NCBI RefSeq assembly: GCF_021228795.1
Contig: NZ_CP089309.1
Coordinates: 4,709,501 to 4,773,500, forward strand
Direction of reading: 5' to 3'
DNA length: 64,000 nucleotides
Origin: Thiocapsa bogorovii
Lineage (GTDB): Bacteria > Pseudomonadota > Gammaproteobacteria > Chromatiales > Chromatiaceae
Shown piece after piece: positions 30,724 to 45,346 of this stretch (the stretch's first letter is position 1; each line of letters opens with the position of its first letter). The translations under genes were made by a program, and so were the position numbers. The notes under the pieces are model-generated. The model was given only the letters and a program-made list of their open reading frames with translations. It was not told where the DNA came from and did not search any database.

Positions 30724-30724
30724 C

Positions 30725-31903: not shown

Positions 31904-31942
31904 GAGATACCTCGAAGTGCGGTGTCGACCGTTGACTGTTGT

Positions 31943-31960
31943 AGAGTGAACGTTCATTCT
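31943..31960. promoter_or_regulatory. Palindromic operator between efflux operon and TetR gene
   Basis: An 18-base dyad with core TGAACGTTCA (31947-31956) extended by AGA/TCT on both sides, one mismatched pair. It overlaps TTGACT (31932-31937) that could be a -35 element. Position in a divergent tetR/RND promoter region is typical of AcrR/TtgR-like operators. Confidence 0.6.
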
Positions 31961-32094
31961 AGTTCGTGACCGAACTTTAGACCGGCGAGTCGACGAGGTC
32001 AAGGTGTCAGGTGGCGTGCGCGGTTCGAGCCGTTGCGGCGCCGTCATCAAAGAGCGCCCGCGCGACGGCGCGAACAGGCAGCGGAGGAGGCAGA

Positions 32095-32691: not shown

Positions 32692-32934
32692 CCTAGATCC
32701 GGCAGTTGACCGCTTCGTGCTTCATGCAAGGTCTAGACGGCCTTAACGATCGCACTTGTCGAATGGCTCACCGGTTGGGTGAAGGCCGCTACGACCCCTG
32801 GAGCACGCCCCGAGCGGCGCCCGACTGCGTTGCAACGCGTTGTCGTAGAACCACTACGCCGCCTCGTTGCGCCTTGCCGGACACCGCGCGGGACGCACTC
32901 CAGGGGCCGTTCAACTGCCGGATCTAGGTTTAAG
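32686..32934. mobile_element. 249-bp MITE-like element with 24-bp terminal inverted repeats
   Basis: Left arm 32686-32709 (CTTTAACCTAGATCCGGCAG plus TTGA) and right arm 32911-32934 are inverted repeats matching at 23 of 24 positions. The inside has no credible gene. A right-end fragment recurs at 23719-23755, showing that the sequence has moved or recombined. It overlaps the stop of the TetR gene by six bases. Confidence 0.7.
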
Positions 32935-33028
32935 GCTTGGTCCGTCCGGCCGATGTATCGAGCTGAGGCGCCATTCGTCGGAACCGCTTCGGGCGAACCT
33001 CCGGATCTCCGAAGAGGACTTCGGGAGG

Positions 33029-33057
33029 TTGACGGCATCGCGCCCGAAACGTATGAT
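33029..33057 (+). promoter_or_regulatory. Sigma-70 promoter of the tRNA-Met gene
   Basis: TTGACG (33029-33034) and TATGAT (33052-33057) are separated by 17 bases. Transcription would start near 33064, eight bases before the tRNA. Confidence 0.75.
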
Positions 33058-33071
33058 CTCACGTCTTGTTT

Positions 33072-33148
33072 GGCTACGTAGCTCAGTTGGTTAGAGCATC
33101 GCACTCATAATGCGAGGGTCCCCTGTTCGAGTCAGGGCGTAGCCACCA
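33072..33148 (+). tRNA. tRNA-Met (anticodon CAT), elongator type
   Basis: 77 bases including an encoded CCA. The acceptor stem GGCTACG pairs with CGTAGCC, the anticodon loop is CTCATAA, and the T loop is TTCGAGT. Similarity to Escherichia metT in acceptor and D arms supports elongator Met, although a tRNA-Ile(CAT) cannot be excluded without the identity elements being scored. Its 3' 45 bases form the left attachment repeat of the integrated element. Confidence 0.93.
33104..33148 (+). repeat. attL: 45-bp attachment repeat within tRNA-Met
   Basis: Runs from the anticodon loop (CTCATAATGCG) to the terminal CCACCA. Identical to 45135-45179; the flanking bases differ on both sides, which defines the crossover core. 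Confidence 0.92.
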
Positions 33149-33165
33149 CAAAAACAAAGTAAAAC

Positions 33166-33191
33166 AGCCGCTTACTAGAGCGGCTTTTTTG
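33166..33191 (+). terminator. Intrinsic terminator after tRNA-Met
   Basis: AGCCGCT (33166-33172), a six-base loop, AGCGGCT (33179-33185), then a run of T residues. It lies 18 bases after the tRNA, inside the element's left end. Confidence 0.85.
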
Positions 33192-33220
33192 TTTTCAGCG
33201 TTCGCGAAAAGTTCGTAGTC

Positions 33221-33243
33221 ATCTGGGCTACATCTGGGCTACA
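33221..33243. repeat. Arm-type direct repeat, left end of the element
   Basis: Two consecutive copies of ATCTGGGCTAC plus a final A. The identical 23 bases occur at 44979-45001 at the other end. Paired copies inside both ends suggest integrase arm-binding sites. Confidence 0.65.
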
Positions 33244-33321
33244 CCGCACACACTAGACGGAAGGACAAAAAAACCCGCCAAGCGGCGGGCCGAATTCGCG
33301 TTACCGAAACGCCTATCTGCG

Positions 33322-33561
33322 TCAGACCAGGACGGCGACCCCGAAGGCGTCGGGGCCGTCCGGGTTGGCGAGGTGTCCGCAGTCGAACCCCTCGCCCTCG
33401 GGTGCGATCCGATAGCCCATCTCGGACACCAGCAGGACCGCAGACCTCCAATCGAGCGCGGATCCGATCCGCTGCAGATCGCCCATGTTGCCCTCCGCGT
33501 CGAACGGGACCACAACCACGTCGCGCCGGGTGCCGTCCAGATAGGATTGATCGTTGCTCAT
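33322..33561 (-). CDS. Hypothetical protein of the satellite element (79 aa)
   Basis: 79 residues, acidic, reading VVVVPFDAEGNMGDLQRIGS and a Gly/Asp-rich end; no family recognised. The start is well supported: ATG 33561 is preceded by two tandem AAGGAGC ribosome sites and a G+C-rich hairpin, a leader duplicated before 33609-33950. It is the last gene of the minus-strand array, next to the left end. Confidence 0.6.
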   Translation of the reverse strand: MSNDQSYLDGTRRDVVVVPFDAEGNMGDLQRIGSALDWRSAVLLVSEMGYRIAPEGEGFDCGHLANPDGPDAFGVAVLV

Positions 33562-33603
33562 GCTCCTTGCTCCTTGAGGTTGTGCCCGGACGAGCCGGGC
33601 GGG
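33562..33603 (-). promoter_or_regulatory. Duplicated leader A: hairpin plus tandem ribosome sites
   Basis: On the minus strand a GCCCGG/CCGGGC hairpin (33584-33600) is followed by two AAGGAGC units immediately before ATG 33561. The same module, with three AAGGAGC units, lies at 33951-33996. Confidence 0.65.
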
Positions 33604-33608
33604 CGTGG

Positions 33609-33950
33609 TTAGTTTAGAGACTCCACACTGATGACCAACGTGCGCGGGTTGTTGTCGTCGCCGAATCCTAGGACAACCTCGTTGCTGGATGACTCGGGAA
33701 CACTGGGCCAGCGCAACCCATCCGAGCCAAAGGTGTCAGGATCGAAGTATATCGGCTCGGCTCCAATAAACATGACAGGAATCAATCGGCGCAGAACAGC
33801 ATCGACAGCGGCTTGATGCGCGTCCGCCGATTCGAGTTCGGCCGTTTCGGTGTGCGGATCGACGTAGTCATCCCACGGGTCGACCCCGCCATATCCGGGA
33901 TAGCTGGCGGTTACGCGAAATGACTTCATTTCGATCTGTTGTGGTTTCAT
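33609..33950 (-). CDS. Hypothetical protein of the satellite element (113 aa)
   Basis: 113 residues starting MKPQQIEMKSFRVTASYPGY, with an acidic middle and a hydrophobic VVLGFGDDNNPRTLVISVES end. No family recognised. The start at ATG 33950 is chosen because three tandem AAGGAGC sites precede it directly; the frame continues further upstream but without a credible start. It shares its leader architecture with the downstream 79-aa gene. Confidence 0.6.
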   Translation of the reverse strand: MKPQQIEMKSFRVTASYPGYGGVDPWDDYVDPHTETAELESADAHQAAVDAVLRRLIPVMFIGAEPIYFDPDTFGSDGLRWPSVPESSSNEVVLGFGDDNNPRTLVISVESLN

Positions 33951-33996
33951 GCTCCTTGCTCCTTGCTCCTTGCGTTGCGCCCGGACGAGCCGGGCG
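33951..33996 (-). promoter_or_regulatory. Duplicated leader B: hairpin plus three ribosome sites
   Basis: Minus-strand hairpin GCCCGG/CCGGGC (33979-33995) followed by AAGGAGC three times, ending at ATG 33950. The extra unit compared with leader A suggests slippage variation of ribosome-site number. Confidence 0.65.
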
Positions 33997-34002
33997 GTTG
34001 GG

Positions 34003-34299
34003 TCAGTGTCTCGTGCCATCCATGTCGAACTCATCCACGAAGACGTGAGCATCCCACATGTCGAGTCCGGCCTCTGTCACGGTCACGGTCCAATCCTCGG
34101 CATTGCAAGGGATCCCGGTCGGATGGGTCGGCCTTATGATCTCGATCCAGCCCAATCTCTCAAGTTGGTCGAGAACATCGGGCTCAGTCGTTTCGGTGAA
34201 GTGGGGGCCGGCTTCGTCGCGGGTGCACAGGTCCACCAGTGCGCGGACAAGTGCGTCCAAGCGGTCGTTTAGGTCGCCTTCGATGTATCGCTCGGTCAT
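34003..34299 (-). CDS. Hypothetical protein of the satellite element (98 aa)
   Basis: 98 residues beginning MTERYIEGDLNDRLDALVRA. The region LDQLERLGWIEIIRPTHPTG and TVTVTEAGLDMW has the feel of a winged-helix C-terminal wing (reader helix, then beta hairpin), but the match is loose. Its ATG overlaps the TGA of the interrupted gene upstream (ATGA), implying translational coupling. Confidence 0.6.
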   Translation of the reverse strand: MTERYIEGDLNDRLDALVRALVDLCTRDEAGPHFTETTEPDVLDQLERLGWIEIIRPTHPTGIPCNAEDWTVTVTEAGLDMWDAHVFVDEFDMDGTRH

Positions 34300-34475
34300 G
34301 CTGTCGCCTCCATCGGTTTGGGATAACCAAGTTCCTTGAGTGCCGCGGAGAGTTCATCACCATTGATGGGCTCGATCTTGGCGCAGCCCTTGAGCTTGGC
34401 GCTGGCACCGCGTTGAAAATCAGCTCTAGGTTTCGCGCGCAGTGTGGGGTCGGCGCTGAGTCAAGTGTTGGCCAT
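34296..34475 (-). pseudogene. Small satellite gene interrupted by an in-frame TGA at codon 5
   Basis: From ATG 34475 the frame reads MANT, a TGA, then LSADPTLRAKPRADFQRGAS and KLKGCAKIEPINGDELSAA to a TGA at 34296 that overlaps the next gene's ATG. The part after the first stop looks protein-like (Lys/Arg-rich then an amphipathic LKELGYPKP end) and keeps correct spacing to both neighbours. Either a single nonsense change has disabled the gene, translation restarts at CTG/GTG-type codons, or the stop is read through. No family recognised. Confidence 0.5.
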
Positions 34476-34478
34476 ACC

Positions 34479-34988
34479 TTATGCTTCTTCTGGTATCTCG
34501 CCTGTCTTAAGCATCTCTCTAAATTGTAGTTCGCTCATTACGACCACACCTTGATGCCGAGACTTCTCGATCTTTTTGGGGCCGGCGTTGTAACCGCAGC
34601 AAAGAAACGCTAGGTTTGATGTAACGGCTGAGCGCACCACCATATCAAAGGAATTTGCCAGAGCGATCAAATCTTCTTTATCGTCTTTCTTGAACCCCGT
34701 AAAACAGACTTCCGGAGCGCCATCTAGGTTAGGCGCGCGACGGCGAATATAGGCGCTGCTAGTCAATGGCTGCGGGTTTATCGAGAGATAGTGCTCTAGT
34801 TTGGTGTTGATGTTTTCATCGTCTACAGCATCGTCAAGAATTCTGTCTTTTCGGAATGTTCTTAACGCATTAGACGAAGTACATACACCCTGAATGTACT
34901 GCTCTGATTCAGAAACATTGATAACTTTTCGTGCAGTTATCGATCCTTTTGCGTCTTGGTAGATGAAAAGTCTGACTCCTCTAGACAT
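34479..34988 (-). CDS. WYL-like plus BRCT domain protein
   Basis: 169 residues. Residues about 1-60 (RLFIYQDAKGSITARKVINV, YIQGVCTSSNALRTFRKDRI) match the small-barrel WYL domain, which binds nucleic acid or nucleotide ligands. Residues about 90-165 are a BRCT domain: EVCFTGFKKDDKEDL, a second strand VVRSAVTSNLAFLCCG, GPKKIEKSRHQGVVV and SELQFREML. BRCT domains bind DNA ends or phosphoproteins. I chose ATG 34988 because GGAGG lies five bases upstream; an ATG four codons earlier contains that site. The gene is clearly A+T-richer (about 38-45% G+C in lines counted) than the rest of the window, pointing to recent acquisition. Confidence 0.75.
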   Translation of the reverse strand: MSRGVRLFIYQDAKGSITARKVINVSESEQYIQGVCTSSNALRTFRKDRILDDAVDDENINTKLEHYLSINPQPLTSSAYIRRRAPNLDGAPEVCFTGFKKDDKEDLIALANSFDMVVRSAVTSNLAFLCCGYNAGPKKIEKSRHQGVVVMSELQFREMLKTGEIPEEA

Positions 34989-35170
34989 GCCTTCCTCCAT
35001 TTTTGAACGTTTATGGCTAACGTGGCCTTCAGTCGCGAGCCAAGCGGTCTCGACTCCGCGTGCACCCAGTCAGTCACCGACACAAACCCTTCAGCTCGCA
35101 TGCGTTCACGGCATTCAGCCATGCGAACATGGGTAGGTTTGCCCTTCTCGGTATCGGTAGCGTGTGACAT
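34937..35170 (-). CDS. Hypothetical basic protein of the satellite element (77 aa)
   Basis: 77 residues from ATG 35170: MSHATDTEKGKPTHVRMAEC, then RERMRAEGFVSVTDWVHAES and a basic end. No family recognised; the composition (Lys/Arg-rich, short helices) would suit a nucleic-acid-binding phage protein. It overlaps the WYL-BRCT gene by about 50 bases in another frame. Confidence 0.5.
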   Translation of the reverse strand: MSHATDTEKGKPTHVRMAECRERMRAEGFVSVTDWVHAESRPLGSRLKATLAINVQKWRKACLEESDFSSTKTQKDR

Positions 35171-35647
35171 AGGTAGAGCATCGACGCCAGAACACGGTTT
35201 GCACAATCGCCTGATCCGATTCCTTGGCGATCGGCGATAGGCGCCGATCCGATGCCGATCCGATTGCGCCAATGGTCGCGCCACGTCAGCAGCAGTGCGC
35301 CTTCGATGCCGTACACGCTCCAACAGCCCGGCCGATGGATCGACAACGCCTATCAGGCGCGGATTTTGCGCCTACTGCGGATCAGCATGTTGGGCGATTA
35401 AAGCAAAGGTTGCGCCCGATAGGCTGCGACGATAAAGAGGCTCGGGCATGGGGTTTGCTTAGGGGCTCGCCCCAAGTTTGGGGCCGGCTCCCTGTTGGGG
35501 TTTGAGTGCCGGTGGTGGTCGACCTGCAGGATCATCTCGACGCGCTTCGATTATGACGCTCCACGCGGGCCTGTCGGCACGCCGATGCACTCGCCAGCCG
35601 AGCCGGTGCCGCGGGCTCTGCGGGGCGCTGATGCGACGTGGTAGGGC
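35171..35647. other. 477-bp gene-poor region inside the satellite
   Basis: Open frames here have only TTG starts and no recognisable protein. It contains tandem GCCGATCCGAT units (35243-35253, 35254-35264) with a related GATCCGAT nearby, and a hairpin AGGCGC/GCGCCT (35355-35373). Such features could belong to a replication origin, packaging site or promoter block; this is inference. Confidence 0.45.
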
Positions 35648-35803
35648 TTACGGGTTGGAGTCGGGAGACTGGATCAGATCCAGTTGCGCACGAAGATCGT
35701 CCATGTCGATTTCGGGTGCTGCGGCGATCTCCGCGGCGAGCGATTCGACCATGCCGGCAGGGATTTTGAGCAGATCGGCTAGGGCTTCCAGGTCTTCACT
35801 CAT
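35648..35803 (-). CDS. Small hypothetical protein downstream of the terminase small subunit (51 aa)
   Basis: 51 residues, MSEDLEALADLLKIPAGMVE then an acidic amphipathic helix ending SPDSNP. ATG 35803 overlaps the stop of the Nu1-like gene by eight bases (ATGAGTGA), which supports translation. No family recognised. Its helical, acidic nature would suit a partner of the terminase small subunit. Confidence 0.55.
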   Translation of the reverse strand: MSEDLEALADLLKIPAGMVESLAAEIAAAPEIDMDDLRAQLDLIQSPDSNP

Positions 35804-36299
35804 GAGCGGCGCCGGTGCCCTCAACGATCTGGCGATAAAGACTTTCGCGCATTCGATCGACCACGGCGATAACGCGCTCGACTGCGGCGCCATCGATACC
35901 GGCGTCTCGCTCAAGCAAGTCAGGCAAACTTTCGAGCCCGGTCGCGATCGGCTTGATCGTCTCGGACAGGACGCGCTCGAAATCGGCTGCGGTAATCAGC
36001 TCTCCGCGGACCTTCCCGAGCTGCGTTTCCGCCAGATCCGCCCGAGCTGCGTCGAGTCTGGCTCGTTCACGCTGCGGGTCGAGCGTGCCGGGCTCGGTGG
36101 CTGCGTCGGGCTTGGGAGTGAACCGCCACTCGGCGACGGCGAGTAGGTCAAACTGCCACGGGCGCCCCGAGTCGCCTCGCTCGATCACCGGGCATCCGCC
36201 GTTTCGGGTCCAGGTGTCGACGGTCGGCAAACTGACGCCGAAAAACGCGGCGACGCCAGAACGGTTGGCGATTCGCGACGGATGCGGGGTTGTTTTCAC
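35796..36299 (-). CDS. Nu1/DUF1441-like terminase small subunit
   Basis: 167 residues from a GTG start. Residues about 8-50 are a MerR-like winged helix (IANRSGVAAFFGVSLPTVDTW, then GGCPVIERGDSGRPWQFDLL) as in lambda Nu1 and DUF1441 DNA-packaging proteins. Residues 75-110 form a long charged helix (RERARLDAARADLAETQLGK) with the usual RGELI turn. The protein would recognise a cos or pac site for packaging. No large terminase gene is present in the element, so it would have to work with a helper phage's motor. Confidence 0.75.
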   Translation of the reverse strand: MKTTPHPSRIANRSGVAAFFGVSLPTVDTWTRNGGCPVIERGDSGRPWQFDLLAVAEWRFTPKPDAATEPGTLDPQRERARLDAARADLAETQLGKVRGELITAADFERVLSETIKPIATGLESLPDLLERDAGIDGAAVERVIAVVDRMRESLYRQIVEGTGAAHE

Positions 36300-36375
36300 T
36301 TATGCGGTTATAAAATCAAGTTATGAGGTGAGAAAACGATAGCGCCCCGAGCTGCGCGAAACCTGCGGTATACAG

Positions 36376-36397
36376 GTTCCGGCACAGGACCCGGAAC
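36376..36397. promoter_or_regulatory. Dyad between the Mor-like activator and terminase genes
   Basis: GTTCCGG (36376-36382) and CCGGAAC (36391-36397) are perfect inverted repeats around eight bases, with weaker symmetry further out (GTATAC/GTGTAC). It may be an activator site for late genes or a terminator of the activator gene. Confidence 0.4.
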
Positions 36398-36433
36398 GTG
36401 TACGACACACGCAACACCCTGAACCGTAAGCAC

Positions 36434-36691
36434 TTATAGCCATCTGCTCTGGCGTCTGCGTATCGTAGAAGTCGAGCATCCGACGCGACGCGCCACGTCT
36501 TCCAGGCTCTCCCCTTTCGCCAGCAGCTCTCGGGCCTCACGGTCTCGATGCTCTCGGTCAATCGCCTGGATGTAATACTCGGCGCCTCCCCATCGGTGCC
36601 GGACCTCCGCGACCGCAGCGGTCACGGCGGCTTCGGCCAACCCGAGACGGATACAGGTTTGCTTCGTGTCGGTCAAAATGTCTTCGGCCAA
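36434..36691 (-). CDS. Mor-like transcription activator
   Basis: 85 residues with a TTG start preceded by GAGG. Residues 20-50 (AAVAEVRHRWGGAEYYIQAIDR) match the dimerisation part of Mor/C-type activators, in which a G-G-Y-Ile pattern recurs. Residues 55-85 form the HTH (GESLEDVARRVGCSTSTIRRRQS). Mor proteins switch on middle or late phage genes. Its position just upstream of the terminase small subunit suggests it controls the packaging module. Confidence 0.6.
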   Translation of the reverse strand: MAEDILTDTKQTCIRLGLAEAAVTAAVAEVRHRWGGAEYYIQAIDREHRDREARELLAKGESLEDVARRVGCSTSTIRRRQSRWL

Positions 36692-36739
36692 TGCACAGAC
36701 CTCGACAGGTGGTGTGAGGTTGCCGGTCGGCGCCTCGCG

Positions 36740-36973
36740 TTATTCCCAAGCCCCGCCATTCGGTGGCGCGACACTGAGACTATCGAAGCCCCGCAACATC
36801 GAACAAAGCAGCGTTGCGGCGCTGCTGCGGTTTAGGGTGTGTTCCAGCTCGTCCAGCTCGTCACGCTCGCTCGCGCAAAGCTCGGGCTCGTGACGCAGAA
36901 GCCGTACATACCTCTCGGCGTCTGCGATCAAGCGGCCTGGATCCCTCACGAATCGCGGCGCGTGCTCGGTCAT
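36740..36973 (-). CDS. Hypothetical protein of the satellite element (77 aa)
   Basis: 77 residues starting MTEHAPRFVRDPGRLIADAE, mostly alpha-helical (YVRLLRHEPELCASERDELD) with a looser end. The start lies four bases after the stop of the coiled-coil gene. No family recognised. Confidence 0.55.
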   Translation of the reverse strand: MTEHAPRFVRDPGRLIADAERYVRLLRHEPELCASERDELDELEHTLNRSSAATLLCSMLRGFDSLSVAPPNGGAWE

Positions 36974-36977
36974 CGTT

Positions 36978-37607
36978 TCACGCGGCCATGTCTTCGTTGC
37001 GGATCCAACCATGACTGGTCCACTGGTAAGCATCCTCTCCACTCGGCGCCTTCTCTGCGGGTGTGGTGTCAACGGTGACGCCAGCGGCCTCGAGTGCGCT
37101 GGTGAGATCCGCAATCTCGCCTCGCAACAGATCCGCTTGCGCGTCCAGCTCTTGGACCTTGGCCCGACGCGCGGCGACCGGGAGACCCGCATCCGCGGAA
37201 GGTTTGACGCTGCTGAGCTTGAGCATCGCATCGGCGATCGTTTCGGCTGGCAAGATCGCGCACAGCAGATCAATCGAGACCTTGCCGCCGGGCACGCCAT
37301 ACAGCGCTGCATCTGAGCCGTGCGCAGTCTCGGCGCTGGCGGCTTGCTTGTGCAGCTCTTTCAGCAATTGGTCGACCTCCGCTTGAGCCTCGATCGCGCG
37401 GCGCCGGATGTTGGCAACCAGGATGCCCCGGACATCTTCAGGTGCGGTCGGCGCACTCAAGATCCGCTCGCGCTCGGCGAGCACGCTATCCAAGCGTGCA
37501 CGGGTTTCGGCGAGTCGATCGCGGGCGCTGCTGATTTGCGCTTGAACCTCTTTCGCCATTTGGGCGAGGCTCGACGGGGATGCTGCGGGCACTTGCTTAG
37601 CTGGCAT
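36978..37607 (-). CDS. Coiled-coil protein of the satellite element
   Basis: 209 residues. Residues 15-95 are a long heptad-patterned helix (LAQMAKEVQAQISSARDRLA and RRRAIEAQAEVDQLLKELHK), followed by a globular part (GKVSIDLLCAILPAETIADA) and a second helix ending near residue 185. It could be a scaffold-like, size-redirecting or inhibitory protein; the sequence gives no family. It overlaps the upstream gene by 11 bases. Confidence 0.6.
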   Translation of the reverse strand: MPAKQVPAASPSSLAQMAKEVQAQISSARDRLAETRARLDSVLAERERILSAPTAPEDVRGILVANIRRRAIEAQAEVDQLLKELHKQAASAETAHGSDAALYGVPGGKVSIDLLCAILPAETIADAMLKLSSVKPSADAGLPVAARRAKVQELDAQADLLRGEIADLTSALEAAGVTVDTTPAEKAPSGEDAYQWTSHGWIRNEDMAA

Positions 37608-37896
37608 GGCGATAGACTCCGGTGAATTGATCCATGATGCGCTGCTGCGCTTCGGCGACCTGTTGCTTGCGCTTATCGTCTTCGCGGGCCTGGATAAAGC
37701 CGACTCTCACGGCTTCATTGATTCGGCGCTGCGACTCGGAGATAACCGGCGCCGGGGTTTGTTCGGGCTCATCTTTCGCGCGTGCGAGGTTCAACGGCGC
37801 TAGGTCGCCACGGCGAAGCGGTCCAGGCCAATTGCAAGCCTGCTCCGACTGCTCACCGAAAAAGACGGCGCGATTCATAAAACGTGGAACTTTCAT
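37597..37896 (-). CDS. Hypothetical protein of the satellite element (99 aa)
   Basis: 99 residues, MKVPRFMNRAVFFGEQSEQA, with a Pro-rich middle (DEPEQTPAPVI) and an amphipathic helical end rich in Lys and Gln. No family recognised. Its ATG shares one base with the stop of the upstream Cys-rich gene (TAATG). Confidence 0.55.
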   Translation of the reverse strand: MKVPRFMNRAVFFGEQSEQACNWPGPLRRGDLAPLNLARAKDEPEQTPAPVISESQRRINEAVRVGFIQAREDDKRKQQVAEAQQRIMDQFTGVYRHAS

Positions 37897-38105
37897 TATT
37901 CGGTCCTCGGGTGGTGGTCAATACGGGTTTCGCGGCGGATCTGGTCAATCTCTTTGCGGTAATCAAACCATCCGCTTGCACGTCGCGTCGGCGGATTGGG
38001 TTTCTGCAATACGCAGCGGTGACACTCCGGGTCGGTCAATCGATCCTCATACCGGCATATCTCGCGGGTGTCGTTCGTCGTGCGGTGGCAGCTCTTTAGA
38101 GGCAT
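37896..38105 (-). CDS. Small Cys-rich protein of the satellite element (69 aa)
   Basis: 69 residues beginning MPLKSCHRTTNDTREICRYE, with cysteines at C6, C17, C29 and C32 (CHRC), enough for one zinc site. The end is basic with the EIDQIRRETR helix. It may be a zinc-finger regulator of the Ogr type in size, but the spacing does not match Ogr well. It starts within the preceding gene by a 10-base overlap. Confidence 0.5.
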   Translation of the reverse strand: MPLKSCHRTTNDTREICRYEDRLTDPECHRCVLQKPNPPTRRASGWFDYRKEIDQIRRETRIDHHPRTE

Positions 38106-38335
38106 GACGCCCCCGTCGCTCGCGGCGCGTTCAGCTCCGCGCACAGACTGCGCCACGTCGCGGCGAAGTCGAGAAAGAGCGGCGGCGCTCGGGATAGGTC
38201 GGATTCAGCGGCCATGAAAGCGAGCGCCACTAATACAGCGTGCTCCGTCTCCGTGAGCCCATATTGCGCTCCCCGCGGGGCCTCGCATGGTGCGCGCGGT
38301 GCGGGTGTTGGATCTGGCAAGGTTTCGTCGCTCAT
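38096..38335 (-). CDS. Hypothetical protein of the satellite element (79 aa)
   Basis: 79 residues: a Pro-rich start (TLPDPTPAPRAPCEAPRGAQ) then a helical part (LTETEHAVLVALAFMAAESD). No family recognised. Its ATG overlaps the TGA of the RHH gene (ATGA), so it is probably co-translated with it. Confidence 0.5.
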   Translation of the reverse strand: MSDETLPDPTPAPRAPCEAPRGAQYGLTETEHAVLVALAFMAAESDLSRAPPLFLDFAATWRSLCAELNAPRATGASCL

Positions 38336-38532
38336 CTGGTCATCAGCGGCGCTACGGGGCCGGTTGGCGCGGAGCGATTGAGTAGACGCGCACGTCGTTG
38401 CAAGTCGCGCTGTAATGCTTCGATCACGATTGAGCGAATAGACGCACCTGAAGATGCGGCAATGCTTTTCAATGCCCGGTGATCGGCTTCTGGTAGGTCG
38501 ACAACCAATCTTTTTGGTGTGGTGATTCTCAT
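38332..38532 (-). CDS. Ribbon-helix-helix DNA-binding protein
   Basis: 66 residues with the RHH pattern: strand KRLVVDLPEADHRALKSIAA, then SSGASIRSIVIEALQRDLQR helix. Dimers of this type insert a beta ribbon in the major groove and act as small repressors or antitoxins. No toxin-like partner gene is adjacent, so a regulatory role in the element is more likely. It lies downstream of the helicase gene in the same direction. Confidence 0.7.
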   Translation of the reverse strand: MRITTPKRLVVDLPEADHRALKSIAASSGASIRSIVIEALQRDLQRRARLLNRSAPTGPVAPLMTR

Positions 38533-38617
38533 GTGTACAAATCTACAGGAACGAATGAGGATGTCAATTCGAATCGGATGATCTCCGCACGATTGCGGAG
38601 ATCTCCACAGCTTCCAC

Positions 38618-40090
38618 TTATGCCGCTCGACGCTTCGCCGATCTGATCTGATAGTGACGAATCCATCTGGCCTGTTCGTCGCTCGGCTGGATCCCTGGAA
38701 AGAGCTTCCAGGCGAACGGCGGCTTCATTCCTCCGAACTTCGCAAGGAACGCATGGAACGCCCATCCATCCTTCCATCCTCGACGCTCGGCATACCATCG
38801 AAACGCCTGATACCATCCTCGTCGATCCTCGACGCTGAATACCGCGGTTCCGTCGTCGCCTGATCCGTATTCGACGAGACGCCCGTCTCGATAGACGACT
38901 TTCGACTTGCGACCCGGCCGATCGATGCCGCACGACGAGCAGGTGAATTGATCCGACTCCATGACGGCTCCGCAGTGCGAACAGGCGACCATGCGCTTTT
39001 CGGCCTTCTTCTTCGATGCGGCTTGATGTTCGCCCTTCCCGAGATCGGGAACCTCGAAGTGAATCGGCAGACCGAATCGAAGGGTATTCCCCGCATGGTC
39101 CAGAATCAGGGCGTCGGCTTTTCCATCGGCACGCCGTATGACCCGCCCGAGCTGTTGCATATGCAGAGCTTCCGATAGCGTAGGTCGAGCTAGAATTGCG
39201 CACGATGCGCCTGGATAGTCGAAGCCGATGCCCAACACGTTGACGCTCGATAAGACGCGGATCTCGCCGGCCTTGAACGATGCAATGATGTCCTTGCGCT
39301 CGTCGGGCCGGGTGTAGGCGTCGATGTGCGCTGCGGACACGCCAGCGTCGACGAAGTCGGCTATCACCGATTTGCTGTGCGCAATGTCGACGGCGAATAC
39401 TAGAGTCGGGCGGTCGATCGCCTTTTCCGTCCAGGTTGCGATGATGTCGCCGATCAAGGCTTTCGTATTCATCGCGTCCGCCAGCTCCGACGAGACGAAA
39501 TCGCCGCGCTTGAGCTTCACTCCCGAGATTGCCCGCTCGATCGACTCACTCCCCGGGCAGAACGCACGAGCCGGTGTCAGGAACCCTTGCTCGGTCAACC
39601 ATGCGACCGTAGGGCCTCGCACCAGGTTGGTGAAGTGTCCCCCGAGATCCGGTCTTAGAGGAGTTGCCGATAGGCCGATGAAGGGAACCCTGTTCCATGC
39701 TTCCATCAGCTTGATGTGGTCCTTCGCCAGAACATGGGCCTCGTCGATGATGGCGAATCCAGCGGGCGGAACTCCGCGGGCGGCGAACGTCTGGCGAGTG
39801 CCGACGATGACCTCGTCGTCGCAGTGCAACCAGGTGTTGCCGGCCTGCATGACTCCGACGCGAAGGCCTACGGCTTGCAGCGTGTCGGCAGCCTGATTCA
39901 CCAGTTCGATGCGGTCGACGATGAAAATCGACCTGTTGCCCTTCGCCGATGCCGATCGGATCAGGTGTGAGGCAACCACGGTTTTTCCGCCGCCTGTCGC
40001 AAGAGCACACATCTGACGTCGATGTCCGGCCGCATAGCCTTGACGCAGCTCTCGGATGATGTCGCCTTGAAAGGGATGCAGCTCAAACAT
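38618..40090 (-). CDS. SF2 DEAD/DEAH helicase with C-terminal zinc ribbon
   Basis: 490 residues. Helicase motifs: Q-like FELHPFQGDII, Walker A ATGGGKT (31-37), DEAH (116-119), SAT (141-143), motif V VNVLGIGFDYP and motif VI QLGRVIRR. A C-x2-C ... C-x2-C zinc ribbon (CSHCG, CSSCG) lies near residues 370-390. It resembles the ResIII/UvsW-like helicases of phages and satellites and probably unwinds DNA for the primase encoded just upstream. Its ATG overlaps the primase stop by eight bases. Confidence 0.85.
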   Translation of the reverse strand: MFELHPFQGDIIRELRQGYAAGHRRQMCALATGGGKTVVASHLIRSASAKGNRSIFIVDRIELVNQAADTLQAVGLRVGVMQAGNTWLHCDDEVIVGTRQTFAARGVPPAGFAIIDEAHVLAKDHIKLMEAWNRVPFIGLSATPLRPDLGGHFTNLVRGPTVAWLTEQGFLTPARAFCPGSESIERAISGVKLKRGDFVSSELADAMNTKALIGDIIATWTEKAIDRPTLVFAVDIAHSKSVIADFVDAGVSAAHIDAYTRPDERKDIIASFKAGEIRVLSSVNVLGIGFDYPGASCAILARPTLSEALHMQQLGRVIRRADGKADALILDHAGNTLRFGLPIHFEVPDLGKGEHQAASKKKAEKRMVACSHCGAVMESDQFTCSSCGIDRPGRKSKVVYRDGRLVEYGSGDDGTAVFSVEDRRGWYQAFRWYAERRGWKDGWAFHAFLAKFGGMKPPFAWKLFPGIQPSDEQARWIRHYQIRSAKRRAA

Positions 40091-41126
40091 GACTGCGCCC
40101 TCCCTGGAATGCCGCAGTGCAGTAGGCGTCGGCGTCACCGAGACTCGCAACGACATCTGCGATCGTCCGACCTGCACAAGATCCATGATGACAATGGAAT
40201 CCGGGCCACCGTCCGGGATTAACGAAGACGACGGCGCCGGTGCGTCCGTGCGGCGTCGAGTGCCCATCGCGCCACGGACACCAGACCGAGTGAGTCGTCG
40301 AGTCGACGGCGTGCCTGTAGAGCCCGTGAGCGGTCAACCAGGCGACCACGTCGAGTGTGGTGTAGTCGCCTTTGCCGCCGATGCGCGGGCCGGCCTGACG
40401 CGGCTCCGACGACGTCACGGCGGGTGTCGAGCGACGGGCGTAGAAGTTCGCTAAATCCTCGACGAGACGACGCTCGACCTGACGCCACGGCGCCGGGATC
40501 CAACACGCCGAGTCACGATGCGGTCGTTCGGGCGTATCCGGTCCCTTTCGATTTCGCGTGCCGTACAGGCGGAAAATCCTTCCGGGATTCTTCACGCTGC
40601 GGTCAAAGTCGACCTCGTCGTCGGCGAACTCCGCGGCGAGTCCCGAGTAGATCGACCTGAACATCTCGGTCGTCTCGTCGTTGCTCGGCAGTCTGACGCG
40701 GTAGACGGCGTGATAGCCGTTGCCGCTGAGTCCATGCAGCGGTATGGGCCAGTCGAGTTTGCGCAGCATCGCGACCAGGGCGTCACGGCGCCCGAGTGCG
40801 GCTTTCAGCTCGTCGGCGGTCGACGAGACACCTGTCGGTCGACAAGGATCGAAGTCGAACGGAATCCGAGTTACCCATGCAACATCGCCGTTGCAGATCG
40901 GCGAGCCGGTCATGCCGTTGCCGACGTGCCGCGGCTTCGGGCCGTTGAGCGACGTGAACAGGTTGCCGCGGTCCCGAAGGCGGTCGACCTGACGAACAAG
41001 TCGATCCAGGTCGTCGAACCATCCTGTCGTCCAGCGTTCGCCGATCTGATGCCGCAGCTCGATTGAGCCGTTATCGCTGATCTGTGCCGCCAGATAGTCG
41101 CGCGTCGATGTCAGCGTCGGAGTCAT
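40083..41126 (-). CDS. Archaeo-eukaryotic-type primase with C-terminal Zn-binding segment
   Basis: 347 residues. AEP motifs are in order: motif I IPFDFDP with the two metal-binding Asp residues (91 and 93), motif II SGNGYH (134-139), and motif III DFDRSVKNPGRIFRLYGT (173-190). A C-terminal segment with WCPWRDGH and FHCHHGSC looks like a CHC2-like zinc site. It would lay primers for element replication together with the adjacent helicase. ATGA overlap with the winged-helix gene upstream supports the start. Confidence 0.82.
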   Translation of the reverse strand: MTPTLTSTRDYLAAQISDNGSIELRHQIGERWTTGWFDDLDRLVRQVDRLRDRGNLFTSLNGPKPRHVGNGMTGSPICNGDVAWVTRIPFDFDPCRPTGVSSTADELKAALGRRDALVAMLRKLDWPIPLHGLSGNGYHAVYRVRLPSNDETTEMFRSIYSGLAAEFADDEVDFDRSVKNPGRIFRLYGTRNRKGPDTPERPHRDSACWIPAPWRQVERRLVEDLANFYARRSTPAVTSSEPRQAGPRIGGKGDYTTLDVVAWLTAHGLYRHAVDSTTHSVWCPWRDGHSTPHGRTGAVVFVNPGRWPGFHCHHGSCAGRTIADVVASLGDADAYCTAAFQGGRSHV

Positions 41127-41722
41127 GCCGCACCTCCGAGCCGGATCTCGACGAGCTTGCCGCCGTCCGGGCCGTCCGGGGGGTTGCCTACCCTTCGGGC
41201 AACTGTAGATGTAGTTGTCCCTTGGGGGGTCCCTTGAGTAGGGGCTTGGCAAGGGGCTACCGAAGGGGCTTCGGTAGGGGCTTGGCAAGGGGCTTGGGTA
41301 GGGGCTTCATCCGATCGGAAGATGGGCCAGCGGTCGAGAAACATCCGCACCAGCGGCGATTCGGGTAGGCTGGCAATGTGGCGCTTTGCCTCGACGAGCC
41401 GATAGTCTTCGGCTTTGGGCTCGCCTTTCTTCCAGGCGAATTGAGCCGCACACTGATTCGGCAGATAGACCAGTCCCGCCGCCGAGTCGCGCAGCAACAG
41501 GCCGACGGCTTCCAGGTCATCAAAAGCGTCGTCGACGGTCTCGCGATCCTCGAAGATGATCTCGGCGATCGTCCCTGACGCGACGAAGTGAATCCCGGTG
41601 CGGTGCGACTCGGGGCCGCACTCGCAATAGAGCAGGACCTTAAAGGCAACATCCGACAGGCGAAGGGCCGCGCGATACTCGCGAATCCAGCGCGCCGGCT
41701 CGATATGGGCGTCCTTACGCAT
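41123..41722 (-). CDS. Winged-helix protein, possible replication initiator, with Ala-Pro repeat tail
   Basis: 199 residues. Residues 1-125 look like the helix-rich replisome-organiser type: WIREYRAALRLSDVAFKVLL, TIAEIIFEDRETVDDAFDDL and LEAVGLLLRDSAAGLVYLPN form HTH and wing. Residues about 148-172 are a tetrapeptide repeat (APTQ-APCQ-APTE-APSV-APCQ-APTQ) encoded by six 12-base DNA repeats. Being directly upstream of primase and helicase, it is a candidate origin-binding or loader protein; no family could be named. Confidence 0.6.
   Translation of the reverse strand: MRKDAHIEPARWIREYRAALRLSDVAFKVLLYCECGPESHRTGIHFVASGTIAEIIFEDRETVDDAFDDLEAVGLLLRDSAAGLVYLPNQCAAQFAWKKGEPKAEDYRLVEAKRHIASLPESPLVRMFLDRWPIFRSDEAPTQAPCQAPTEAPSVAPCQAPTQGTPQGTTTSTVARRVGNPPDGPDGGKLVEIRLGGAA
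41240..41311. repeat. Six 12-bp tandem repeats inside the winged-helix gene
   Basis: Consecutive units AGGGGCTTGGCA, AGGGGCTACCGA, AGGGGCTTCGGT, AGGGGCTTGGCA, AGGGGCTTGGGT and AGGGGCTTCATC. The length is a multiple of three, so copy-number change keeps the frame. Repeats inside an initiator gene can also act as iterons of the origin. Confidence 0.85.
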
Positions 41723-42338
41723 GGGGCGCCTCCGTGCTATCATTCTTCGCGAACATGCCTTGCTCGTCGCCTTCACCGATCGAGCCGTTCGCCGCGGCTC
41801 GATCGGTATCCATCATCAGTTCATCTAACCTGATTGCCTGCTCGAATTGCGCTCGACATTCCGGGCCGATTCCCCATTCGATTGATCTCGGGTCAGTCAA
41901 CGCACGGCCGCAGAATCCGCAGTTCAACGCACCGAAGGCAATCGCGCGCTTCGGATCGTCGACGAATCGCCGCAGTGTCTCAGTCACCAGGTCGACAGCC
42001 GCACCAGTGCGGGCGTCGTCGCGTTGCCATCTCATCAGGTGCAGTGCGCAATCGGGCAAGATGCGGACCTTGATCTCGGTCTTGGCGTTGACCGAAGTCA
42101 CCAGCTTTGCCTCGATGTTGTAGATCGTCCATCCGGTTGGTGAGCTGTGCAGTATCGGCCTGATCTCGATGTTGAACCGCTCGCGATCTGCGACCAGATG
42201 CAGTTTCGTCGGCGGGCGTCGACGGTCCAGTTCATGACCCGCCAGTCGTGCCGATGCAATTCGATGCAGTAGGGAATGGGCGTCGAAGTCGAGCGGGATC
42301 GGCTTCAGCCATGTTTCGCGGGTGTATTCGGCGCTCAT
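41715..42338 (-). CDS. DUF6011-domain protein of the satellite element
   Basis: 207 residues from ATG 42338. The C-terminal third has NCGFCGRALTDPRSIEWGIG followed by PEC, the zinc-ribbon signature of DUF6011 proteins common in phages and conjugative elements. The N-terminal part is a beta-rich domain (LHLVADRERFNIEIRPILHS, TGWTIYNIEAKL). Probably nucleic-acid associated. Overlaps on both sides (ATGA upstream, eight bases downstream) mark it as part of one operon. Confidence 0.65.
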   Translation of the reverse strand: MSAEYTRETWLKPIPLDFDAHSLLHRIASARLAGHELDRRRPPTKLHLVADRERFNIEIRPILHSSPTGWTIYNIEAKLVTSVNAKTEIKVRILPDCALHLMRWQRDDARTGAAVDLVTETLRRFVDDPKRAIAFGALNCGFCGRALTDPRSIEWGIGPECRAQFEQAIRLDELMMDTDRAAANGSIGEGDEQGMFAKNDSTEAPHA

Positions 42339-42553
42339 GACTGCACCGCCTGGGTCCAACGCACGACGCGCGCAAGGTTGCCGTTCGGGGTCACGTCAAA
42401 TTCGCCGGTGACGACGGGTTGCATGCCGGCGGCTTTAGCCTGTTCTTCGCAAAAGCGATCGAACGCTTCCCAATTGGAAACGCCTGTCGGGTGCATGGCC
42501 AGCGGGTCAATGCCGTGCTCCACCAGAAATGCATGGGCGGTTGATTCGTTCAT
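42335..42553 (-). CDS. Hypothetical protein of the satellite element (72 aa)
   Basis: 72 residues, MNESTAHAFLVEHGIDPLAM, then NWEAFDRFCEEQAKAAG and a beta-rich end (VVTGEFDVTPNGNLARVVRW). No family recognised. ATGA overlaps on both sides place it between the AlpA-like regulator and the DUF6011 gene in a coupled operon. Confidence 0.55.
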   Translation of the reverse strand: MNESTAHAFLVEHGIDPLAMHPTGVSNWEAFDRFCEEQAKAAGMQPVVTGEFDVTPNGNLARVVRWTQAVQS

Positions 42554-42756
42554 GCCGCCGCCCTCCCGGTGATCGATTCGGCCTGTTTCCGCTCGATCCA
42601 CTCCGATTCATCCCGGTCGACGATGCGAAGCTGTCCGCCGATCTTGATCGTTCTGGGCATATCCGAGCGGCGCCTGTAGAACGTTGGCTCACTGATCCCG
42701 TGACGCTCGCAGAAGTCGGCGACTGAGGATGATGTCGGTCTTGATGGGGTTTTCAT
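42550..42756 (-). CDS. AlpA-like helix-turn-helix regulator/excisionase
   Basis: 68 residues. The winged helix is SSVADFCERHGISEPTFYRR with the wing IKIGGQLRIVDRDESEWIER, as in MerR-like AlpA and Xis proteins. In P4-like satellites and PICIs such proteins regulate the lifestyle switch or aid excision. AGGTGAA precedes ATG 42756. It is the first gene after a terminator and a 175-base A+T-richer spacer (42757-42931), so that spacer probably holds the main early promoter of the element. Confidence 0.72.
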   Translation of the reverse strand: MKTPSRPTSSSVADFCERHGISEPTFYRRRSDMPRTIKIGGQLRIVDRDESEWIERKQAESITGRAAA

Positions 42757-42896
42757 GTATTCACCTTTTCGTATCGGTGCAATCGGTTGACTGCGTTTAA
42801 TTGCCGATGCGATGGGCTTAGTGAACAGCGAAGTGAAAACCGATAAAACGCGATGAATCCGACGAACGTTAATCGGGATTAATCGGATCGACAGGC

Positions 42897-42922
42897 ATAA
42901 AAAAACCGCCGTGATGGCGGTT
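42897..42922 (-). terminator. Intrinsic terminator after the 205-aa gene
   Basis: On the minus strand AACCGCC-ATCAC-GGCGGTT is followed by seven T residues. It ends the integrase transcript ten bases after the 42932-43549 gene, separating it from the AlpA operon. Confidence 0.85.
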
Positions 42923-42931
42923 CGATGTGGG

Positions 42932-43549
42932 TTACTGCGTTGGCTTCTTTCGTTCTCGCCCGATGTATGTCTCAAGCGTTTTTCCCTGGACGAGCGGATC
43001 GAGCCCGAACCTTTCAGCGGCCATCATGCCGGCTTCCTTCTTTGTTCTCGCTTCGCGGCTCGTATAGAGCTGTCGAACAAGATCGATCGCCTCGTCCGGG
43101 ATTTTGATCGGCGCTCCCGGCTTCGCCTTGATCGGCTCCGACTCCGACACTCGTGCCGCGGCCGTCTCGGGAAACAGCTCGACTCCACGCTCGGCGGCGA
43201 AGCGGATCAGGTCGGCTTGGTAGATCCATCTGTTGAGCTTTGGCCCATTGTCGACGGTCGCGACGGGCACCTGATTCGGCTCGGTATAGCCGTTGCGCAA
43301 GAGGGTGGTGCCGTCCAGCCACGTCGATCGTCGACGACGGATAACAGGACCTCTCGGTGGTCCTTCCTCGGACTTCACCAGATGATTCAGGTCGGCGGCG
43401 GCGTCTCGCCGTGCGATCTTGTAGTCCCGACTCCCGTTCGGCACGCCGTAAGGAAAACCATAGGCGACGTGCAACCAGATAGAGACGGCCGTCTCGACGC
43501 TGTACTTGCCGCCTTCCGGGTTGGTGAGTGCGATCGGTAGGCCGTTCAT
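42932..43549 (-). CDS. Hypothetical protein co-transcribed with the integrase (205 aa)
   Basis: 205 residues. Start region SVETAVSIWLHVAYGFPYGV, basic middle (PVIRRRRSTWLDGTTLLRNG), and a C-terminal helical part KKEAGMMAAERFGLDPL with TLETYIGRERKK. The last part could be an HTH. No family recognised. Its ATG overlaps the integrase stop (ATGA) and a terminator follows, so integrase and this gene form one transcription unit; a role in recombination directionality or in immunity is possible. Confidence 0.6.
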   Translation of the reverse strand: MNGLPIALTNPEGGKYSVETAVSIWLHVAYGFPYGVPNGSRDYKIARRDAAADLNHLVKSEEGPPRGPVIRRRRSTWLDGTTLLRNGYTEPNQVPVATVDNGPKLNRWIYQADLIRFAAERGVELFPETAAARVSESEPIKAKPGAPIKIPDEAIDLVRQLYTSREARTKKEAGMMAAERFGLDPLVQGKTLETYIGRERKKPTQ

Positions 43550-44907
43550 GCCGCCGCTCCCGAACGCAGTTCGACCACATTGTTTGCTGGCGGATCGGCG
43601 AGCCGCAGAATGTAGTCCTCGACCTGCTGCATCAGCGGACGAAGATCATCGGTGTCGAGCTGGACGTAGTTCGTCCCGGTGACGTCGCCGGTCGTCGCAT
43701 GGTTCAACGCGGCCTTGATCGCGTATCCGCCGATGCCGGCTCGCTCGGCGAAGCTGGCCCATGACCGACGCAGATCATGCGGCGTGACGGTTAAGCCGGT
43801 TGTCTTCTCGATCCTGACGAGTTGCTTGCGGACTTCGGATGTCCCGATGACATAGTCGGCTGGCTTGCGTTCTTCATCCGTCTCGACGACTTTCTCGTTC
43901 TCCGCGTCTCTGGCACGCTTGCGAGCTTCCAGGATCTCCCGGACGCGAGCCGTCATCGGTAAGGTGTGATCCTTGCCGTTCTTCGTCTCACGGACCTTGA
44001 TCGTCCCTCGCTTGAAATCGACATCCGACCAAAGCATGAATCCGGCTTCACGTCGGCGTAGGCCAGTGAGCAGCAGAAGCTCAAGATATGCCGCCATGCG
44101 CTCGGGGTCGCCCTGGGGTTGGTCGATCGGCAGTCGCCGGACAGCTTCCAGCCACGGCCGAACGTCATCGGTCCCGAGCTTGCGCGTCCGAGCGTCCGAC
44201 CGGCTCCACTTGCGCTGTACCCGATTCACCTTGTCGACCGGGCATCGGCCGAACGGCAGTTCATCCTCGTCGTCGCCGTAGAACTCCGACGCAAATCGAT
44301 GGACAGCTCTTAGGACCTGCATCGCGCGCATAGCGACGCTGCGGCTCGTCTGACTGATCTCGGCGTGACGAGTGACGGCCATCGCGCCGGTGATCTCGCG
44401 CAGCGGCTTATCCTTCCAGTCGACGAGATCCCGGTCGATGATGAGTTGATAGCCCTCGATCGTGCGCGGGCGTAGGGCTTTGGTCTTCAGGTAGGCTTGA
44501 TATGCTTTCTTCAGCGTGACGCCTGCCAGCTCGTCGGCTTGCGCCTGAACCGCCTTGTCGGCTCGCAGTTGGCGTGCCGTTTCGTTCGGATTCTCCCCGG
44601 CTCGCAGTTGCGCAAGGATCTCGTCGACGCGACCACGCACGGACGCCTGACCCTTGAGCGCCGTCAAGGGCAGTTCTCCGACCTCGCAGATCGTGACGCG
44701 GATCGGCGCCGTGATGCCTTTCGCGCGACCGTAGACCTGAAGGACGCGGCGCCCATCGGGATACTTGCGTCCCGGTGGGCTCACTCGACAGATCAAGCCG
44801 GGTTGTTGGGTGTCCCGAACTTCATACCGGGTCGACTCGAAGGGCAGGGCGTCGAGCTTCGCCTGCGTGAATTTGAAAGGAGGATGGGCTACAGTTGCTT
44901 CAGTCAT
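43546..44907 (-). CDS. int: Tyrosine-recombinase integrase of the satellite element
   Basis: 453 residues with the P4/phage-type plan: arm-binding N-terminus (KLDALPFESTRYEVRDTQQP, the DUF4102-like opening), core-binding SAM-like domain, and catalytic domain with Arg284 (TGLRRREAG), Lys312, His377-x-x-Arg380 (PHDLRRSW), His403 (LNHATTG) and Tyr414 (TNYVQ). All catalytic residues are present. It would catalyse recombination at the 45-bp core in tRNA-Met. It lies next to attR, with two arm-type repeats (44979-45001) upstream of its start. Confidence 0.93.
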   Translation of the reverse strand: MTEATVAHPPFKFTQAKLDALPFESTRYEVRDTQQPGLICRVSPPGRKYPDGRRVLQVYGRAKGITAPIRVTICEVGELPLTALKGQASVRGRVDEILAQLRAGENPNETARQLRADKAVQAQADELAGVTLKKAYQAYLKTKALRPRTIEGYQLIIDRDLVDWKDKPLREITGAMAVTRHAEISQTSRSVAMRAMQVLRAVHRFASEFYGDDEDELPFGRCPVDKVNRVQRKWSRSDARTRKLGTDDVRPWLEAVRRLPIDQPQGDPERMAAYLELLLLTGLRRREAGFMLWSDVDFKRGTIKVRETKNGKDHTLPMTARVREILEARKRARDAENEKVVETDEERKPADYVIGTSEVRKQLVRIEKTTGLTVTPHDLRRSWASFAERAGIGGYAIKAALNHATTGDVTGTNYVQLDTDDLRPLMQQVEDYILRLADPPANNVVELRSGAAA

Positions 44908-44978
44908 GGCACGCTACCTGTCAGCGGGTTGTGACGAGAAGCCGGGCGGGTGGACTAGACCCTTCCGGCTTCGCTTTT

Positions 44979-45001
44979 ATCTGGGCTACATCTGGGCTAC
45001 A
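44979..45001. repeat. Arm-type direct repeat, right end of the element
   Basis: Identical 23 bases to 33221-33243 (ATCTGGGCTAC twice plus A), located 72 bases upstream of the integrase start and 134 bases before attR. Confidence 0.65.
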
Positions 45002-45134
45002 GAATTGTGCAATTCGGTGCGACTCGATGCATGTTCATGATAGTCGATAATTGAGCGGAAATCAAAGCGGGAACAGGCATTTAGGTGAGGTTTGCGAGTA
45101 GGGTCAAGGAGTTGCAATACAGGGCTTAACCGTT

Positions 45135-45179
45135 CTCATAATGCGAGGGTCCCCTGTTCGAGTCAGGGCGTAGCCACCA
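45135..45179 (+). repeat. attR: 45-bp copy of the tRNA-Met 3' end
   Basis: Exact copy of 33104-33148. It is a tRNA fragment from anticodon to CCA without the 5' half, so it is not a functional tRNA. Confidence 0.92.
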
Positions 45180-45199
45180 AATCCGATAAGAGAAAGTCG

Positions 45200-45222
45200 A
45201 ACCGGCCTTGAGCTGGTTTTTT
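45200..45222 (+). terminator. Intrinsic terminator just beyond attR
   Basis: AACCGGC (45200-45206), five-base loop, GCTGGTT (45212-45218) with one G-T pair, then a T run. Before integration it would have ended the tRNA transcript. Confidence 0.65.
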
Positions 45223-45242
45223 CTTGTCTGCGGTCCGGGCTC

Positions 45243-45254
45243 CACCTGGGCTAC
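45243..45254. other. Arm-like site outside attR
   Basis: CACCTGGGCTAC matches the arm repeat CATCTGGGCTAC at 11 of 12 bases but lies outside the element, 64 bases past attR. Its spacing from the attachment core resembles that of the left-end arm (73 bases), hinting at an older element in tandem. Confidence 0.45.
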
Positions 45255-45346
45255 CGATTGCAAATCGGCTCGACTCGTCGGCCCGGTGTGATGTCGCGGT
45301 AAATCTCAGGCCCGTCCATCGGCCGCGGGCCTCGGCCCGCAAGGGT

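Follow-up and report, generated by a model that had tools for sequence, protein, structure and literature searches.

A candidate phage satellite with a predicted in-gene replication origin at a tRNA-Met gene of Thiocapsa bogorovii

A 12,076-bp element inserted at a tRNA-Met gene of Thiocapsa bogorovii was compared with described phage satellites, using a window of 64 kb (NZ_CP089309.1, positions 4,709,501–4,773,500) in which all positions below are numbered. P4-like satellites replicate autonomously and are coupled to their helper through cross-activation of late genes by P4 Delta and P2 Ogr, and the initiator gene of phage lambda, O, contains an internal origin with iterons. PICIs of Gram-negative bacteria carry an integrase gene (int), a replication module and a master regulator in conserved order within 12–15 kb, without structural or lytic genes, and their attachment (att) sites are described as never occupied by prophages (PMC6092414). 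PICMIs of Vibrionaceae lie adjacent to fis and have DUF3987/DUF5906 primases; a gene overlaps int in 21 of 35 subfamilies, in 14 by ATGA, and the six genes listed for PICMI115 do not include terS (PMC10803314). In cf-PICIs, capsid genes are accompanied by portal, connectors and the large terminase subunit TerL (PMC10690885), and SaPIs redirect their helper by a small terminase subunit TerS (pac type) or by the capsid homolog Ccm (cos type) (PMC8569155; PMC5052747).

The Thiocapsa element is most readily likened to a Gram-negative PICI of the EcCICFT073 type, which spans 12–15 kb with int, AlpA, a replication module and sometimes terS. Its size lies in that range and its gene order is that of a PICI; the AlpA match is weak, and in place of Pri-Rep there are different replication genes, for an AEP primase, a DnaD-like initiator and a separate SF2 helicase. 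Structural and lytic genes were not found in the window copy, whereas three relatives (L047, L097 and L098) carry capsid genes, which also separates them from Gram-negative PICIs. With PICMIs the element shares an int overlapped by the next gene, then alpA, then the primase gene; the overlap was ATGA in five of six elements examined and GTGA in L097. It differs from them in its position at tRNA-Met instead of fis and in the lack of a DUF3987/DUF5906 Pfam match. The capsid genes of some relatives recall cf-PICIs, but portal, connectors and TerL were not detected here, and a TerS or capsid-protein gene recalls SaPIs, which belong to other hosts and are likened by description. Autonomous replication, as predicted from the replication module, would be shared with P4; late-gene cross-activation is an analogy only, and no match named P4 alpha, Psu, Delta or Sid appeared in general Pfam and PHROG scans, for which the presence of a model for each was unchecked. 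Iterons in the initiator gene recall lambda O, with differences in the 12-bp unit, the DnaD-like protein and the satellite context. The element would work like a PICI or P4 and yet seems to miss a defining feature of each of the four families compared (Gram-negative PICI, cf-PICI, PICMI and P4-like), in agreement with the original prediction that its gene set fits no named satellite family. Judged from its sequence, it is probably an integrated phage satellite of a family outside those compared, which would copy its own DNA and be packaged by a helper.

Integration site and replication module

The sole tRNA gene reported by ARAGORN in the window, also found with Rfam, was tRNA-Met (CAT) at 33072–33148 on the plus strand, which is left intact at the att end of the element. 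A 45-bp repeat within its 3′ end (attL, 33104–33148, plus strand) matches perfectly a second copy 12,031 bp away (attR, 45135–45179, plus strand), and a third copy was absent from the 64-kb window at ≤3 mismatches (shuffles, 0.00). Every predicted gene between the repeats is on the minus strand, 5 of 11 overlaps among the listed gene pairs are of the ATGA form, and the G+C content is 60.2%, compared with 65.7% in the remaining window. The tyrosine integrase (43546–44907; Phage_integrase 1.9e-20) is full length and 84, 61, 58, 55 and 64% identical to those of five relatives; a hit to the Arm-binding domain was weak and under the cut-off. Direct repeats with an 11-bp unit at 33220–33243 and 44979–45001 are likely integrase arm-type sites; similar repeats flank the core of L097 on both sides, L045 has them beside int alone, and none were found in L046.

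The replication module consists of a putative DnaD-like initiator (41123–41722; phrog_1701 4.5e-6), an AEP primase with a C-terminal Cys/His motif (40083–41126) and an SF2 helicase (38618–40090; ResIII/Helicase_C 2.6e-16; phrog_16 1.2e-80). For the primase, no Pfam family was obtained at E 1 and nothing credible in a PDB sequence search with its profile; the F-D-x-D, SGNG-x-H and F-D motifs are invariant in 16 homologs, and the structure model (pLDDT 82), which has an AEP fold, was best matched by S-2L PrimPol (E 1.2e-4; TM 0.64 by target length, 0.37 by query length), with RepB′ among the top three AEP structure matches. By tblastn, two phage records and one plasmid record were retrieved with the primase at 24–35%. 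The helicase also gave a 0.11 match to a TerL family via its ATPase; a defence role was not adopted for it, the PADLOC hits covering helicase segments. The perfect terminal repeats, the intact integrase, the one-strand layout with ATGA overlaps and the SF2 helicase of the original prediction were thus recovered, and its AEP primase is supported by the structure model.

Six 12-bp units were located by TRF at 41240–41307 within the initiator gene, where we predict a replication origin that is newly described here. The 8-mer core of the window iterons occurs five times in the initiator gene and nowhere else in the element. Among nine elements whose initiators were grouped with that of the window by eye from protein sequences, the 8-base core is present in all nine, with 2–5 copies in the gene and 0–2 elsewhere. 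It is read in either orientation but in the same 12-bp phase, one DNA word giving Ala-Pro or Gly-Ala repeats, and the codon pairs of this word were used in 17/24 and 16/23 cases, against 8/185 and 7/156 in the rest of the nine elements. With codon shuffling, the observed score was reached by 0 of 200 shuffles in 14 of 16 initiator genes; the stretch used overran the stop codon in L051 and L059, and the L051 repeat lies behind the stop. A different unit is present in L045 (four copies in the gene, one elsewhere), a third word is weakly shared by L053 and L054 (two and one copies), and the score of L046 is barely above its null. Together these data suggest that the 12-bp iterons are apparently constrained at the DNA level.

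Relatives, packaging genes and a free form

The initiator–primase–helicase backbone was found in 16 copies, defined by a primase match of ~1e-72 or better, in 15 of 210 family genomes and at several tRNAs; the search at order level took in the same 210 genomes. Primase matches were obtained in 20 of the 210 genomes at E 1e-3, in 22 with a profile of the 16 copies, and in 12 of 61 genera, the named relatives being from Thiocapsa, Halochromatium and Thiorhodococcus. In a class sample of 369 genomes, two besides the own genome were matched at 1e-20. Ten other genomes of the genus yielded one full relative at tRNA-Met (G114), a 21-bit trace (G110) and eight without a match. All 15 related loci have a helicase match behind the primase, fragmented in L046 and truncated in L048, and one cluster of the initiator-like protein holds 13 of 16 elements.

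Repeats resembling att sites were found in 8 of 12 examined loci bearing a tRNA or tmRNA: 48 bp, 55 + 32 bp, 53 bp and 21 bp at Met, 36 + 19 bp at Ser, 50 bp at Thr, 17 + 15 bp at Leu and a weak 14 bp at tmRNA. None were seen in L047, L048, L054 and L061, of which the last two are truncated by contig ends. Elements with both ends span 6.8 to 15.7 kb, and L046, a short relative, carries little cargo. The ends of L047 are unproven, and a tRNA-Met-like core was not found nearby; a 17.6-kb repeat pair around it was rejected as an att site, being partly group II intron sequence. Nei–Gojobori dN/dS values against L045 were 0.17 (int), 0.19 (primase), 0.09 (helicase) and 0.10 (alpA), those against L047 were 0.11–0.31 with dS near saturation, and those of TerS and the Mor-like gene against L060, a phage discussed below, were 0.37 and 0.25. 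By these estimates the core genes are under purifying selection, and the comparison of loci supports a conserved, selected and mobile family over an isolated remnant. The search of related genomes for the same element, which the original prediction had proposed, returned the backbone at several tRNAs, tRNA-Met among them, with att repeats.

The primase–helicase pair was also seen among phage-like genes, assigned by eye, on a 43.9-kb viral contig (L099), so satellites are not its only context. It also lies near tRNA-Met with tail- or lysin-domain genes in a different family of the class (L102, 1–18153), where an att repeat was not found.

A TerS was recognised in four of the 16 backbone copies and belongs to three families: Nu1 in the window (35796–36299; DUF1441 1.9e-14; phrog_141 3e-25) and in L047, phrog_309 in L054 (3.6e-42) and Terminase_4 in L059 (9.9e-9). 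A DUF5681-type protein is encoded behind the helicase in L051, L052, L053, L055, L056 and L057 and could be an unrecognised packaging protein. In L047, three further genes code for major capsid protein E (9.2e-71), a decoration protein resembling lambda D (3.1e-15) and a protease of head maturation (4.4e-40). Two relatives from IMG/VR with 41–43% primase identity also carry capsid proteins, L097 that of phrog_4523 (6.9e-26) plus a TerS (7.8e-8) and L098 that of phrog_10 (2.3e-29); in a further fragment, L100, a TerS-like stretch (30%) lies behind the helicase. Portal and TerL were not seen in L047 and L097, and no unassigned open reading frame (ORF) large enough for TerL is left in L097; L098 is a 5.8-kb fragment too short to judge in this respect.

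Pfam searches (E 1e-4) of 98 of 160 non-core proteins returned no TerL, portal, tail or lysis family; excluded from it were 17 proteins of the window, 10 of L061 and a further 35 (AlpA/DUF5681 copies, duplicates and short ORFs). In Pfam and PHROG scans of 20 window proteins, with the small ORFs 33322–33561 and 36740–36973 outside both, no convincing TerL, portal, capsid, protease, tail or lysis family was obtained, as had been predicted. Queries with two phage TerL and two portal proteins by tblastn gave no match in 17 elements, the TerL and portal negatives hinging on known families and these two phage queries each, and phage capsid and decoration proteins matched L047 only. No relaxase or conjugation family occurred among the scanned window proteins and the cargo proteins of the relatives. 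Genes for TerS, late-activator-like and YqaJ proteins recur across the elements, and RecT-like genes are present. The original prediction would have been undermined if relatives had proved to hold capsid genes with the window copy as their deletion derivative; the capsid genes were indeed found, but because they belong to three different families they look like repeated acquisition and not like deletion from one phage. We lean towards a distinct family of satellites, centred to date on purple sulfur bacteria, in which a single replicon (AEP primase, SF2 helicase and an initiator with iterons in its gene) would have repeatedly exchanged TerS and capsid genes drawn from various phage families without TerL and portal, its members ranging from TerS-only hijackers to partial shell makers in need of a helper motor and portal.

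L097 is a viral contig of 10,379 bp with identical 127-bp ends, giving a unit of 10.25 kb whose helicase gene reads through the terminal join. Its integrase and AlpA are 63% and 68% (60 aa) identical to those of the window. A single tRNA-Met-like half core lies 5′ of int and is flanked left and right by direct repeats of 11 bp, just as these occur at either end of the window element; a whole tRNA was not found by ARAGORN, and the window core had no match at ≤5 substitutions, the L097 core matching the L046 type instead (41/45 by eye). L097 is read as a unit-length, unintegrated (excised) relative, circular or terminally redundant. Among viral contigs, no relative was found by a helicase scan, L097 was the only one confirmed by an integrase profile scan, and a broader primase profile hit 204 contigs, of which the best 80 were nearly all at ≤32% identity and were not counted as family. 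Terminal overlap was seen in L097 only among these best 80 of 204; genes were read in L097–L100, and the remaining kept contigs, many of them contig parts, were checked for terminal overlaps.

Further genes and surroundings of the element

The gene overlapping int by ATGA (42932–43549) occupies the position of the PICMI iolg gene; it clusters with genes of L047 and L049, its product is 26% identical to the L097 counterpart, and its structure model is poor (pLDDT 67). It is followed by the AlpA-like regulator or excisionase with a helix-turn-helix (HTH) domain (42550–42756; phrog_66 E 0.0025), a weak match that agrees with the expected assignment and is backed by one BLASTP cluster spanning 5 of 16 elements, then by a small protein without assigned family (42335–42553, ATGA overlaps) and a DUF6011 protein (41715–42338; PF19474 6.3e-13). 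Behind the helicase lie the predicted ribbon-helix-helix protein (38332–38532), which proved real although its ParD hit (2.2e-5) is just below the cut-off and which is 42% identical over 33 aa to that of L061, and three small genes with overlapping ends and no assigned function (37597–38335). A coiled-coil protein (36978–37607; weak coiled-coil and Rz hits, Rz-spanin 0.0018) is a purely hypothetical candidate for a capsid-redirecting factor; it has look-alikes in L047, L059 and L061, for which BLASTP gave no homology and MAFFT 18–26% identity. A small gene without assigned function (36740–36973) precedes the Mor/late-activator-like HTH protein (36434–36691), for which the Pfam Mor hit remained below the cut-off; it is 46% identical over its full length to a protein encoded beside TerL in phage L060 and 36% identical to an L061 protein. 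The Nu1-like TerS, as predicted, is overlapped by a small gene without assigned function (35648–35803). The protein at 34479–34988 had been called WYL-BRCT; its WYL hit fell under the Pfam cut-off, and it is best described as a phage-type BRCT-like protein of phrog_2561 (4.4e-46), a phage family labelled DNA ligase. Three terminal accessory genes (33322–34299) have no assigned function and matched no PADLOC defence family.

The tRNA-Met locus (3.4–13.9 kb) was read in nine other genomes of the genus (G114 apart), with one tRNA-Met hit each, identical over 77 bases in six and at 88–90% in three. Homology to the right flank of the window starts at ~53467–53490 in seven of the nine and at ~54405 in L205; L210 showed none. 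The stretch 45180–53466 also looks foreign to the ancestral site, though no third att copy marks its far end, and insertions seem to have stacked up at tRNA-Met, which resembles a hot spot. Beyond attR, a type I restriction system plus other genes occupies 45347–53275, a small gene pair between attR and the syntenic host genes is toxin–antitoxin-like by eye, and type I restriction-like genes also adjoin the att end of L045. Beside the tRNA, at 32685–32935, lies a short dispersed MITE-like element with 28-bp inverted arms; a query holding it gave 41 matches in the own genome, and among the matches listed most were to the MITE-like part, and 10 of 11 genus genomes had a match to this part. The Rfam int-alpA RNA (RF02996) was not found in the window at 30000–50000; in L058 it lies beside int at 8861–8928 (66.7 bits).

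Proposed mode of action, helper and rival explanations

According to the proposed mechanism, helper infection would raise AlpA, which together with Int and the product of the int-overlapping gene would excise the element as a 12,031-bp circle. The initiator would bind the 12-bp iterons within its own gene, the helicase would open the DNA and the AEP primase would start copying. The satellite TerS would then join the TerL of the helper and direct satellite DNA into helper heads, and the late-activator-like protein may couple late genes of satellite and helper in the manner of P4 Delta and P2 Ogr. We likewise regard the step from this anatomy to helper-dependent packaging as probable.

A TerS match was found in five of 210 genomes, two of which, G072 (L060/L067) and G186 (L062), hold lambda-like phages with, by Pfam, a gpA-type TerL, a lambda-type portal, a ClpP or S49 protease and capsid protein E; L067 has a tail protein, ~7 kb of other genes lie between portal and protease in G072, and the small gene between the Mor-like gene and the portal was not recognised as W by Pfam. 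The window and L060 TerS are 54% identical over both halves (36/63 and 48/95), whereas the L061 TerS agrees with that of the window in the half presumed to bind TerL (41/96) and not in the one presumed to bind DNA (7/52), roles that we take over from lambda. L061 (G049, 7320–13109) is a second satellite-like locus beside tRNA-Asn with a DUF927 replication gene and TerS, ribbon-helix-helix and Mor-like genes; no TerL was found before the contig end, which falls inside the element. A lambda-like phage of the kind seen in L060 is the probable helper and does not seem to reside in this genome.

Several observations weigh against the satellite reading. No helper came to light: the own genome gave no TerL match to phrog_2, to PF03237 or to the TerL of L060. 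Controls were positive in 11 of 14 cases for phrog_2 and in 6 of 14 for PF03237, and the L060 TerL had matches in 18 of the 210 family genomes. Genomes can carry such elements without any possible helper, according to a review (PMC11389934). The Mor, AlpA and initiator matches are all weak. An iteron-like array was not found in L059 (118/200 shuffles) or L097 (43/200), the best repeat of L056 is a run of Ser codons, L049 has two core copies inside the gene and two outside, and the iteron p-values are optimistic because the repeat units are not independent. Finally, 12 of 16 backbone copies, some of them broken or cut by contig ends, lack a recognised TerS, and six of these carry the DUF5681-type protein, to which no role is assigned. 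The last point, together with the complete-looking replication module and the little cargo of L046, would suit a phage-independent, self-replicating integrative element or plasmid-like island with TerS as a passenger; we regard this as unlikely, since relaxase and conjugation families are absent from the scanned proteins and no other transfer route is thus seen, since genes for TerS, late-activator-like and YqaJ proteins are found repeatedly, with RecT-like genes besides, and since the free relative L097 comes from a virus collection with both a TerS and a capsid gene. A defective prophage decaying in the tRNA after loss of its structural genes, for which the closeness of the TerS and Mor-like genes to those of a lambda-like prophage, the capsid genes of some relatives and the damaged helicases of L046 and L048 could be cited, is still more improbable in view of a backbone common to many genera, purifying selection on its core genes, the variety of TerS and capsid families found on that backbone and the unit-length free L097.

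The reading as a phage satellite, already put forward in the original prediction, is thus favoured by the mobile, selected backbone at several tRNAs, the three TerS families with no TerL detected and the unit-length free contig; novelty was judged against open-access literature only. If it is true, phage satellites would be extended to phototrophic sulfur bacteria, with a phage type named as helper candidate and a directly testable replication origin within an initiator gene, and a single backbone would show steps between TerS-only and capsid-forming satellites.

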